A stretch of 64,000 nt of DNA. It comes from Flammeovirgaceae bacterium. Its GTDB lineage: Bacteria > Bacteroidota > Bacteroidia > Cytophagales > Cyclobacteriaceae. Of this stretch, positions 15,536 to 19,706 are shown one piece after another (within the stretch, counting starts at the first letter, position 1; each line of letters begins with the position of its first letter). The notes under the pieces are model-generated. The model saw only the letters and a program-made list of their open reading frames with translations. It searched no databases and had not been told where the DNA came from. The stretch spans positions 1-64,000 of the forward strand of contig JAJTGY010000010.1 of assembly GCA_021298015.1 (NCBI GenBank). Direction: 5' to 3'. Position numbers and translations under genes: made by a program.

Positions 15536-16849
15536 CTAAAACAACGCCCCCGCAAGGGTGGCGGTCATCATGGTTGCCAGGGAAGCCGCAATCATGGCGC
15601 GCAATCCGAGCCGGGAGAGATCGCCCTGGCGGGAAGGTGCCATGCCCCCGATACCGCCAATCTGGATGGCGATGGAACTGAAGTTTGCAAACCCGCAGAG
15701 CGCATACGTGGAAATACGCACAGCCTTTTCGCTCAACACACCGTTGGCTTTCATGTTGGCCAAATCCAGGTAGGCCACGAATTCATTGATTACCATTTTT
15801 TGTCCCAACAGACTGCCTACCTGCAGAGATTCGCCCCAATCCACTCCAATGCAGAAGGCAAACACGCGGAACACTTGTCCCAAAATATATTGTAGCGAGA
15901 ATCCCTGATAGGTTCCCCCCGTGGAGGCAACCACCCACTCGTTGAGGCCCGTGAAGTTCCCGATGAAGTCAACCAGTATCCAGTTCACAGCATATATGAT
16001 CGCGATGAACGCCAGCAGCATGGCACCAATATTCAATGCCAGTTTCAAGCCATCGGCAGCACCTGTGGCCATCGCATCCACCAGGTTCACGCCAATACTT
16101 TCCTTGTTGACTTTAAGAGACGTGTCAATTTTGTCTGGTTCGGTCTCCGGCAAAAACAGCTTGGCTAAAACAATCGCGGCCGGGGCATTCATGATTGAGG
16201 CGCTCAACAGGTAAGAGGCAAACTTGGCTTGCTGAGCGGGGTCTCCCCCACCCAAAAACGAGACATAAGCGCCCAGCACACTTCCCGCAATAGTCGCCAT
16301 TCCGCCCACCATCAGGCAGTGCAACTCGCTTTTGGTCATACGGTTAATGAATGGGCGCACCAGCAGGGGTGCCTCGGTTTGGCCCATAAAAATGTTGGCC
16401 GCTGCCGAAAGACTCTCCGCTCCGCTAAGCCGCATGGTTCGGGCCATTATCCAGGCGAAACCGTATACAATTTTCTGCAAAACGCCCAGGTAATAAAGTC
16501 CGGCCGTAACGGCTGAAAAGAAAATCACGGTGGGTAATGCCTGAAACGCAAAGAGAAACCCAAGGCTGTGTTTTACATCCGGGTTGCCGGAGCTGTTTCT
16601 GGCAAGGTCACCGTACAGAAACTCGGCACCTTTCAGGGCGAAGCCTAGAAAGGTTACAAACTTTTCGCTGAGGTATACGAAGCCTTGCTGGGCAAATTCA
16701 ACCTTGCCGATGATCAGACCAAAAACAATTTGAATAACGATGCCAACACCAACGAGGCGCCAACTGACGGCCTTTCGATTACCCGAAAGCGCATATGCCA
16801 GCGCAATGATGAAGAGAATGCCCAATAGTGCCCGAAGGTAGTCCATCAT
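15536..16849 (-). CDS. nupC: Concentrative nucleoside transporter, NupC family
   Basis: A 437-residue inner-membrane symporter for nucleosides (CNT family). The N-terminal TM helices are followed by the family core: a Nucleos_tra2_N-type segment with GQTEAPLLVRPFINRMTKSE, a gate segment, and a C-terminal domain with LGQKMVINEFVAYLDL and FANFSSIAIQIGGIGG. All expected motifs are present and the length is normal. The start MMDYLRALLG lies one base after the stop of the broken hicA. Its last 33 bases are duplicated 4.7 kb downstream beyond susCD. There is no nucleoside-salvage gene nearby to refine specificity. Confidence 0.93.
   Translation of the reverse strand: MMDYLRALLGILFIIALAYALSGNRKAVSWRLVGVGIVIQIVFGLIIGKVEFAQQGFVYLSEKFVTFLGFALKGAEFLYGDLARNSSGNPDVKHSLGFLFAFQALPTVIFFSAVTAGLYYLGVLQKIVYGFAWIMARTMRLSGAESLSAAANIFMGQTEAPLLVRPFINRMTKSELHCLMVGGMATIAGSVLGAYVSFLGGGDPAQQAKFASYLLSASIMNAPAAIVLAKLFLPETEPDKIDTSLKVNKESIGVNLVDAMATGAADGLKLALNIGAMLLAFIAIIYAVNWILVDFIGNFTGLNEWVVASTGGTYQGFSLQYILGQVFRVFAFCIGVDWGESLQVGSLLGQKMVINEFVAYLDLANMKANGVLSEKAVRISTYALCGFANFSSIAIQIGGIGGMAPSRQGDLSRLGLRAMIAASLATMMTATLAGALF
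15538..15570 (-). repeat. 33-bp direct repeat, right copy (inside nupC 3' end)
   Basis: This is the right-hand partner of 10874-10906. It covers the last ten codons of nupC plus the first stop-codon base. Since it is coding here and only a remnant at the left copy, nupC is probably the source. Confidence 0.9.
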
Positions 16850-16850
16850 A

Positions 16851-17069
16851 TCAAATTTTTTCCCACTCCTCGCGGGAGATCCCAGCTTGCTTCAAAATCC
16901 GTATTAACAACCCCACAGAAATGTCATGCTGATGTGGATTAGGGAGTGTTAGTCTGACTTCATTGCGGGTCATGAATTGGAGTTTCCCACCTGAAAAAGG
17001 TCCGTCAAAATCCCAACTGGCGCAAATTGCATAACAAATCTCTACGACTTAAGGGCCGATTCTAGGCAT
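16851..17069 (-). pseudogene. hicA: HicA-type toxin, frame-broken
   Basis: The minus strand begins MPRIGP one base after the hicB stop and then meets TAA as codon 7. Shifting frame recovers LSRRDLLCNLRQLGF, and shifting back at a TTTT run recovers DGPFSGGKLQFM, NEVRLTLPNPHQHDISVG and LLIRILKQAGISREEWE to a TGA stop. Joined together these make a full ~72-residue HicA/YcfA mRNA-interferase-like toxin. One base appears missing near 17051 and one extra T is present about 45 bases later, so the ends are in frame overall. The conserved His in NPHQHDIS and the Gly of the RNA-binding fold remain. It is either an inactivated toxin or a pair of sequencing errors. The ORF track misses it. Confidence 0.8.
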
Positions 17070-17070
17070 C

Positions 17071-17310
17071 TCAATCCATTAACTTCACGGCCAGACTAAT
17101 GCCACCAATTACGGGTAAGTCGTGATGCTTAGAAATGCTAAACACTATCCAATCTTCTAAAGTCGACATCAGTTCATCCCGGCATGCTTCAAAACTTGCA
17201 TCATTAGTGTAAACGCCTTGAAACCCTGGAATCTCCCCATAGTACGTTCCATCATCCAGTTTCTCATAACTGGCGAGTTTCATGGCTTCCCGGATGTACT
17301 CGGTAATCAT
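17071..17310 (-). CDS. hicB: HicB-family antitoxin
   Basis: A 79-residue HicB-like protein. The partial RNase-H-like fold is visible as the YEKLDDGTYYGEIPGFQGVYTNDASFEACRDELMS pattern, typical of the small HicB_like antitoxins in Bacteroidota and cyanobacteria that lack a separate DNA-binding domain. It lies upstream of hicA in the same direction, with a one-base gap. Its partner is frame-broken here, so it may be an orphan antitoxin or be free to neutralise HicA toxins elsewhere. It starts two bases after the stop of the bifunctional-nuclease-domain gene. Confidence 0.85.
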   Translation of the reverse strand: MITEYIREAMKLASYEKLDDGTYYGEIPGFQGVYTNDASFEACRDELMSTLEDWIVFSISKHHDLPVIGGISLAVKLMD

Positions 17311-17312
17311 AA

Positions 17313-17852
17313 TCAGTTTCGTTTGCTCAACTCGTCCCTGATCTTGGCGGCCTTTTCGTAGTCCTCCTTATCAATCGCATTTTTCAGCAGATCCTTGAGT
17401 TTATCTACGCTCAAGTTTTTGTAATCGTCCTTTTTGGCTGCCGGCTCTTTCTTCACTTTAACCTTCGTCTCCGGCTTTGACTCTTTTTCCTTTTCTTCCT
17501 CATCTTCCTGATCGGTGAGCACAATGCCTGCCTCCGCCAGGATGGCTTCATAGGTGTAGATGGGAGCATCGAAACGAAGGCCAATCGCGATGGCATCGGA
17601 CGGTCGGGCATCCACCTCGGTCTTTTTCAACCCATCCGTGCACACGACCTTGGCAAAAAACACACCTTCTTTTAGATCCGAAATCATCACCTCCTCCACA
17701 TGAAAGTGATAGAGACTGGCAAACGACTTAAACAAGTCGTGGGTCATGGGGCGATTAGGAATAATCTTTTCAATCTCGATAGCAATGGCCTGCGCCTCAA
17801 ACATGCCAATGATAATGGGCAGGCGCCTGTTACCTTCCGCTTCGCCCAACAC
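17313..17852 (-). CDS. Bifunctional nuclease (BFN/DUF151) domain protein
   Basis: The N-terminal two thirds form a BFN domain: RRLPIIIGMFEAQAIAIEIEKI, RPMTHDLFKSF and DARPSDAIAIGLRFDAPIY are family hallmarks. An acidic/lysine-rich linker (about 125-150) leads to a UvrB/UvrC-type (UVR) motif, DLLKNAIDKEDYEKAAKIRDEL. The annotated GTG start at 17852 cuts into the domain. The same frame continues upstream as KKIKLEILGLSSSQSQSGSFAL, which looks like the conserved family N-terminus, up to a TAA near 17948, but contains no ATG, GTG or TTG. The true start may therefore be non-canonical (for example an ATC near 17930) or hidden by an indel. Enzymatic activity in bacteria of this group is not established. 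Confidence 0.85.
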   Translation of the reverse strand: MLGEAEGNRRLPIIIGMFEAQAIAIEIEKIIPNRPMTHDLFKSFASLYHFHVEEVMISDLKEGVFFAKVVCTDGLKKTEVDARPSDAIAIGLRFDAPIYTYEAILAEAGIVLTDQEDEEEKEKESKPETKVKVKKEPAAKKDDYKNLSVDKLKDLLKNAIDKEDYEKAAKIRDELSKRN

Positions 17853-17962
17853 GAGTGCAAATGATCCACTTTGCGACTGACTACTGGAGAGGCCGAGGAT
17901 TTCGAGTTTTATTTTCTTTGGCGTTGCGATAACGTTCTGATCTAAGAATTAAAAATAGCAAT

Positions 17963-18916
17963 TTATTTGGCAGCCTTGATCGCCTCCGTCAGGCGAGGCA
18001 GCACATCGAAGGCATCACCCACCACCCCGTAGTCGGCCGCTTTAAAAAACGGGGCTTCCGGATCCTTATTGATAACCACAATACACTTGGAAGAATTAAC
18101 ACCGGCCAGGTGTTGAATGGCACCCGAAATACCTATGGCAATGTACAACTGCGGAGCGACCTTAACGCCCGTTTGTCCCACGTGCTCGTGGTGCGGCCGC
18201 CAACCCATATCGCTCACCGGCTTGCTGCAGCCCGTGCCGGCATGCAGCACGTGGGCGAGCTCCTCCAGCTTGCCCCAATGCTCGGGTCCTTTCATGCCCC
18301 GGCCTCCGCTTACCACAATCTCAGCTTCCGGCAACAACACTTCGCCCGTAGCCTTTTCGGTGGATGTAATCTTTGCATTAAAGTCAGCCTCCGAAAGCGA
18401 CACAGCATAAGGCTTCACTTCGGCCTGGCCACTGGTTTCCTTCATTTCAGCTGCATTCTTCCGCAGTGTCAGTACTTTCTTTCCACTTTTCATTTCTACA
18501 CGGGCAAAGGCCTTGCCGGTGTAAATGCTACGCTTCACTGAAAATCCAGACGAAGTATCGGGTAATTCTACCACATTGGATACAAAGGCAGCACCCGTTT
18601 TTACGGCCACCATAGCCGCAACAGGGGTACCCAGCGAAGAATTGGCGAGTATCAATACCTCGGCATTTTCGTCTTGCATGGCTTTGCCAATCACGCTGGC
18701 ATAAGCCTTCACCAACGGCTGGTTCAGCCGCTCATCGCTTGCGTGCAGCACTTTGGAAGCACCATACTTTCCAGCCAGCGCCAGTTCTTCCGCATTAACT
18801 GCGCCCAGCGCAATAGCGGTTACAGGCTTACCAAGAGCCACTGCGTACGAAACGGCTTCCAGCGAAGTCTTCCGCACTTTTCCATCCGCACTTTCCAAAA
18901 AAACTAAAACAGACAT
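17963..18916 (-). CDS. etfA: Electron transfer flavoprotein alpha subunit
   Basis: EtfA with EtfB passes electrons from acyl-CoA dehydrogenases to the quinone pool. It is 317 residues long. The N-terminal ETF domain is followed by the FAD-binding C-terminal domain, with GGRGMKGPEHW, the CSKPVSDMGWRPHHEHVGQTG region, and the signature LYIAIGISGAIQHLAG with VINKDPEAPFF. All flavin-contacting motifs are present. The gene follows etfB by 58 bp on the same strand, the usual operon order. The following BFN-domain gene is about 100 bp further on and may be on the same transcript. Confidence 0.97.
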   Translation of the reverse strand: MSVLVFLESADGKVRKTSLEAVSYAVALGKPVTAIALGAVNAEELALAGKYGASKVLHASDERLNQPLVKAYASVIGKAMQDENAEVLILANSSLGTPVAAMVAVKTGAAFVSNVVELPDTSSGFSVKRSIYTGKAFARVEMKSGKKVLTLRKNAAEMKETSGQAEVKPYAVSLSEADFNAKITSTEKATGEVLLPEAEIVVSGGRGMKGPEHWGKLEELAHVLHAGTGCSKPVSDMGWRPHHEHVGQTGVKVAPQLYIAIGISGAIQHLAGVNSSKCIVVINKDPEAPFFKAADYGVVGDAFDVLPRLTEAIKAAK

Positions 18917-18974: not shown

Positions 18975-19706
18975 TCACAATACTTTTGCCTCTGTCTTCA
19001 GTCGGTTGACCAGATCAGTCATTTGATCGGCTGGGATCATTTTTACTGCACCCTTGGGGGCTGGTAACTCAAATTTTTGAACCACCACGTTTTTATCCAC
19101 GGCCTTCGGCTCCACCACTGTAATCGGCTTTGTTTTTGCCGACATGATCCCGCGCATATTCGGAATCTTCCACTCGGCAATGGGCTCCTGGCACCCCGCC
19201 ACCAGCGGCAGCGATGCTTCGAGGTATTCCTTACCGCCTTCAATCTCACGAGCCATCTTCACGCCCGTGCCCTCAATATCCAATTTCATAACGGGCGAAA
19301 ACGAGGGGACCCCCAGCATCTCTCCCACCATGGCATGTACCACGCCACCGTTGTAGTCAATGGACTCGCGCCCCATGAGAACCAGGTCGAAACCTTTGGC
19401 GTGCTCGGCTATTTGGGAGGCCACAAAAAACGAATCGGTGGGCTCAGCATTAACCCGAATGGCATCATCAGCACCAATGGCCAGCGCTTTCCGGATAGTG
19501 GGCTCCGTTTCAGCGCCCCCGACATTGAGCACGGTAACCGTAGCCCCCATTTTCTCCTTCAGCTCCACGGCCCGTGCCAGGGCATAATCATCGTAGGGGC
19601 CGATGATAAACTGCACTCCGTTTGTTTCGAAGCGGGTGTTATTGTCGGAGAAACTAATACGGGAAGTAGTATCAGGAACGTGGGTAATACAAACCAGAAT
19701 TTTCAT
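18975..19706 (-). CDS. etfB: Electron transfer flavoprotein beta subunit
   Basis: EtfB is the AMP-binding partner of EtfA. The 243-residue length fits. Visible family features are MKILVCITHVPDTT at the N-terminus, the IGPYDDYALARAVELKEK segment, VLMGRESIDYNGGVVHAMVGEMLG and GCQEPIAEWKIPNMRGIMSAKTKP near the C-terminus. The start at 19706 is the natural Met. It is first in the etfB-etfA unit, and diverges from a small TPR-like gene, so the 113-bp gap must contain promoters in both directions. No exact TAnnTTTG element was found there. Confidence 0.97.
   Translation of the reverse strand: MKILVCITHVPDTTSRISFSDNNTRFETNGVQFIIGPYDDYALARAVELKEKMGATVTVLNVGGAETEPTIRKALAIGADDAIRVNAEPTDSFFVASQIAEHAKGFDLVLMGRESIDYNGGVVHAMVGEMLGVPSFSPVMKLDIEGTGVKMAREIEGGKEYLEASLPLVAGCQEPIAEWKIPNMRGIMSAKTKPITVVEPKAVDKNVVVQKFELPAPKGAVKMIPADQMTDLVNRLKTEAKVL

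Follow-up and report, generated by a model that had tools for sequence, protein, structure and literature searches.

Introduction

Gene finders as a rule accept only ATG, GTG, and TTG as start codons, and infC is the classic example of a gene that starts otherwise. Its start codon is ATT in Escherichia coli and ATC in Streptomyces (PMC13068326, PMC5472188). In Listeria monocytogenes, an ATC start of rnhC and an ATT start of infC have been confirmed, and the functional starts of E. coli beyond the three ordinary ones are CTG, ATA, ATT, and ATC (PMC13068326). The sigR gene of Streptomyces has a GTC start, which is replaced by GTT in two species and is repressed by IF3, a factor that spares GTG and TTG (PMC5472188). 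Most initiation in the Bacteroidota takes place without Shine-Dalgarno sequences, and an A at position -3 is a positive position in Flavobacterium (PMC6847099).

Here we describe a bifunctional-nuclease-domain (BFN) gene of a Flammeovirgaceae bacterium, in a window of 64,000 nucleotides (contig JAJTGY010000010.1), which most likely starts with ATC. The sequence supports placing it in the known class of genes that start with a codon other than ATG, GTG, or TTG. Its ATC would be a case of a known kind, because ATC starts are already known from Listeria rnhC and Streptomyces infC. As in those two genes, Listeria infC, and E. coli infC, a conserved gene would depend on an ATN codon other than ATG. 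However, the Listeria starts were confirmed experimentally, whereas the BFN start is read from sequence. Also, infC is autoregulated by IF3, whereas the BFN product is not a translation factor and its gene lacks a Shine-Dalgarno-like motif. The gene resembles sigR in having a non-standard start, in the conservation of that start among close relatives, and in its setting (the first gene of a dosage-sensitive pair, or a presumed operon). It differs from sigR, which has a strong Shine-Dalgarno motif and demonstrated IF3 control, in that the related species use GTG and any role of IF3 is hypothetical.

Results

The BFN gene is on the minus strand, and the gene order there is etfB (ETF beta, 18975 to 19706), etfA (ETF alpha, 17963 to 18916), the BFN gene (17313 to 17930), a small HicB-like gene, and a nupC-type nucleoside transporter gene (15536 to 16849). 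Both etf genes begin with ATG. When read from ATC at 17930 to its TGA stop codon (17315 to 17313), the BFN gene encodes 205 amino acids. The protein matches the Pfam families BFN_dom (PF02577; E value of 1.1e-39; 135.2 bits, against a curated cutoff of 27) and UVR (PF02151; 32.7 bits, against a cutoff of 21.5).

From position 17948, the minus-strand frame reads TTC TTA GAT CAG AAC GTT ATC GCA ACG CCA AAG AAA ATA AAA CTC GAA ATC CTC GGC. An in-frame TAA at 17951 to 17949 is the upstream bound of any possible start. Between this TAA and a GTG at 17852 to 17850, there is no ATG, GTG, or TTG in frame, as an earlier note on this DNA had claimed. That GTG, codon 33 of the frame, is the earliest ordinary start. 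Most of the 38 largest mutually non-overlapping stop-to-stop frames of the window have an ATG near the N-terminus. Gene finders would truncate the BFN protein at GTG 17852, dropping its first strand.

Translation could begin at this GTG, giving a protein without its first strand. In its favor, no ordinary start codon precedes it in the frame, and the BFN_dom match in Pfam extends no further upstream than residue 32. However, the stretch upstream of it is conserved as protein. We measured this by counting amino acid changes in place of dN/dS, because switches between the AGY and TCN codons of serine raise the nonsynonymous count and make a simple dN/dS uninformative here. In comparisons of residues K11 to L32 with 156 relatives from the order, 2,336 of 3,432 codons differed, and 382 of the differences altered the residue. 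By this count, the N-terminus is constrained at the level of the protein. In an AlphaFold2 model (mean pLDDT of 83.5; residues numbered from the ATC), strand 1 comprises residues 6 to 16 and strand 2 comprises residues 23 to 30. Codon constraint and predicted structure therefore bear out the earlier proposal that the upstream stretch encodes the conserved first strand of the family. GTG 17852 is Val27, inside strand 2, so a protein started there would lose strand 1 and half of strand 2. The same note had reasoned that orthologues beginning at the equivalent of this GTG would count against it. Across the order, this position is an ordinary valine codon (GTG in 71, GTA in 44, GTT in 18, and GTC in 12), and in nearly all relatives, an ordinary start codon (ATG, GTG, or TTG) precedes the first strand. 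Because strand 1 is constrained as protein and GTG 17852 lies within strand 2, we judged internal initiation to be improbable.

The model also matches TM0160 of Thermotoga maritima, a BFN/DUF151 protein (1SJ5 and 1VJL; E value of 8.5e-14 over 141 columns). The putative catalytic triad of TM0160 is Thr57, His58, and Asp115 (PMC7249048), and the equivalent residues, T63, H64, and D112, are invariant in 26 aligned sequences. The two proteins thus have the fold and the putative catalytic residues in common, and they differ in that the matched TM0160 chain has no UVR domain, whereas the window protein carries a linker and a UVR domain in addition. From these matches, the BFN-UVR gene product is a putative nuclease.

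The nearest relative of the window is G007 (JAEUUC010000004.1), a Cyclobacteriaceae metagenome-assembled genome (MAG) from a separate assembly. DNA identity over adjoining stretches is 96 to 97%, with many synonymous (third-position) differences around the start region. The start region itself is identical in both, and a single indel immediately follows the etfA stop codon. In the compared gene body, we found 13 synonymous changes and 1 amino acid change, and the 22 N-terminal codons had 2 synonymous changes and no amino acid change. A read error or an assembly indel is very unlikely, because a separate sister species has the identical start region, and we rejected this candidate. Of the two options in the earlier note, a rare start or an indel, the first is therefore the better supported. 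A broader form of the argument is that an assembly or sequencing error, or recent decay of the gene, has hidden or removed an authentic ATG or GTG start. In favor of this, both genomes come from MAG-type assemblies, and the neighboring hicA-like gene is broken. Against this, two separately assembled species agree, the changes in both the gene body and the N-terminus are predominantly synonymous, and the putative catalytic residues are intact. This makes error or decay highly improbable. The best explanation of the sequence is that the BFN gene is intact and would encode a full-length BFN-UVR protein.

Two side observations concern the DNA downstream of the BFN gene. A HicB/UPF0150-like antitoxin gene (17071 to 17310, minus strand) is located between the BFN and nupC genes, and beside it is the hicA-like gene (within 16853 to 17310, minus strand), the frame of which is broken twice. 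This HicB/hicA piece of approximately 0.5 kb (16853 to 17310) is not at the corresponding place in G007.

Six relatives in the genus (L003, L005, L030, L224, L225, and L226) begin with GTG GCx GCx/TCA CCx AAR AAA. In a gapless alignment, the window sequence ATC GCA ACG CCA AAG AAA has its ATC (17930 to 17928), which the earlier note had named as an example of a rare start, on the GTG of these relatives. The codons that follow encode Ala and then Pro-Lys-Lys, as in the V-A-A/S-P-K-K clade. This gapless position is why we preferred a rare start to an indel, and translation probably starts at this ATC. Some points count against ATC: position -3 before it is not an A, which makes for a weak context; inspection by eye found no Shine-Dalgarno-like motif before it; and the genus tree does not firmly place the species pair formed by the window and G007.

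Other non-standard codons in the same stretch are candidates too, above all GTT (17933 to 17931), which an alignment with a gap puts on the GTG of L003. This GTT has an A at -3, and the GTC and GTT starts of Streptomyces sigR are of its type (PMC5472188). However, neither GTT nor ACG (17924) is among the codons that function as starts in E. coli (PMC13068326), and ATA 17912 occupies the position of an ordinary conserved isoleucine in the relatives. A start at any of these codons is rather unlikely, if worth keeping in mind. A start upstream in another frame, followed by a frameshift into the gene, is barely credible. By eye, a 25-codon frame from the out-of-frame TTG at 17961 does overlap the start region, but the relatives have retained neither a frame of this kind nor a slippery site, and in many of them a stop codon immediately precedes the GTG. 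ATC 17930 is therefore the start codon that we favor.

To place this start in context, start codons of the BFN gene were counted at 173 distinct loci of the window's order and 84 loci of other Bacteroidia orders. The order had GTG at 146 loci, TTG at 22, ATG at 2, and none of these at 3. The last group is made up of the window species pair and the frame-disrupted locus L050, which the automatic count scored as having none through its anchoring but which has TTG by inspection. The other orders had ATG at 66 loci, GTG at 10, and TTG at 8. The difference had a Fisher P value of 2e-41, a test that ignores the relatedness of the loci, and the contrast is conservative because the counting rule gave priority to ATG. 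At the same loci, etfA had ATG in 133 of 133 cases and etfB in 45 of 45. The neighborhood does not explain the difference between the orders, since etfA is upstream of the BFN gene at 147 of the 173 loci in the order and at 80 of the 84 elsewhere. Thus, the other orders have the same protein beside the same etfA neighbor and start it mostly with ATG, unlike the order of the window.

In prokaryotes, switches from GUG to AUG starts occur faster than neutral (0.0398 versus 0.0279; PMC5622118). For this reason, the near absence of ATG suggests that weak initiation of the BFN gene is maintained by selection throughout the order. The GTG/TTG pattern might instead be a functionless, frozen accident of ancestry, with the ATC of the window being mildly harmful drift. 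One ancestral change could give GTG in most of the genomes, and the loci are related, so the counts are not independent. However, a single base change separates GUG from AUG and is made faster than neutral, yet ATG is found at only 2 of 173 loci. Also, the start alternates between GTG and TTG and shifts within codons -3 to -8, with ATG remaining very rare throughout. A frozen accident is possible but doubtful. With selection for weak initiation as the reading suggested by these counts, the window species pair is best explained as being one step beyond the order-wide GTG/TTG pattern. We found no description of this avoidance of ATG in the literature searched, which covered few subscription journals. 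The near exclusion of ATG across an order, which goes beyond the earlier note, is the more interesting part of these results, compared with a single ATC gene.

Two further loci or groups were seen in the same survey. In a clade of five loci (L024, L033, L054, L126, and L232), the GTG at codon -8 is now GTA, and a TTG at codon -5 is the sole ordinary start. In one genome of another order (G093, locus L175), the BFN gene has ACA at the place expected for ATG, and the only ordinary start is a TTG four codons upstream, possibly through a shift of the start codon.

Discussion

We infer the use of ATC, co-transcription with etfBA, coupling to etfA, low expression, and sensitivity to IF3 as parts of one mechanism. 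The initiator tRNA would start the BFN gene at a codon other than the three ordinary ones, most likely ATC 17930 to 17928, at a low rate. The mRNA is presumably shared with etfBA, and in the order at large, the weak GTG and TTG codons would keep the amount of nuclease small; in the species pair of the window, the start would have become weaker still. Ribosomes that terminate at the stop codon of etfA, 32 nucleotides upstream, probably aid initiation. The 32-nucleotide gap between this stop codon and the ATC (17931 to 17962) has weak structure: RNA structure at the start does not exceed that of shuffled sequences (z of 0.80), and no minus-strand promoter or terminator site was found between etfA and the BFN gene. 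In some relatives (L093 and L106), the GTG directly follows the etfA stop codon, which fits coupling to etfA.

Translation of the BFN gene may have become sensitive to the level of IF3, because an ATC start should be disfavored by that factor. Control by IF3 cannot account for the pattern across the order, because this factor spares GTG and TTG. A gene of the IF3-repressed type would be expected to keep a non-standard codon in many related species; here, only two species lack an ordinary start, and the rest have GTG or TTG. A tentative synthesis, which we put forward as a possibility and with some doubt, is that exclusion of ATG in the order secures a low dosage of nuclease from the ETF mRNA and keeps it responsive to the initiation machinery, and that in the window pair this has led to an AUC policed by IF3.

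An ATG-poor BFN gene beside an etfA gene that starts with ATG at all loci examined is a clean natural contrast for testing selection on weak starts as a means of dosage control. The contrast in start codons may also help to reveal the role of the BFN proteins, which are widespread and poorly understood. If the ATC is used, it would be one of few known cases, and in a phylum where most initiation does not involve Shine-Dalgarno sequences.

The infC genes of the order were also read, with their start codons assigned by eye. In several families, infC appears to start with ATT, ATC, or ATA, and in others with ATG. The order therefore probably uses ATN initiation elsewhere too. Unlike the ATC of the BFN gene, the ATT and ATC starts of infC often have an AAGGAGG-like motif.

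Some minor observations on infC can be added. At seven loci (L319, L321, L325, L327, L328, L334, and L338), there is no ATG, GTG, or TTG near the N-terminus. The AAGGAGG-like motif that often precedes infC genes of the ATT, ATC, or ATA type is unusual for Bacteroidota. We ruled out that the BFN gene and infC have exchanged start codons, since infC in the window's genus starts with GTG in nearly all genomes read. In that genus (L343 to L372), infC begins with GTG-GCA in nearly all of these genomes, often after TAA-ACC-CAA-CGA, which makes it, after the BFN gene, a second one with a conserved start other than ATG.
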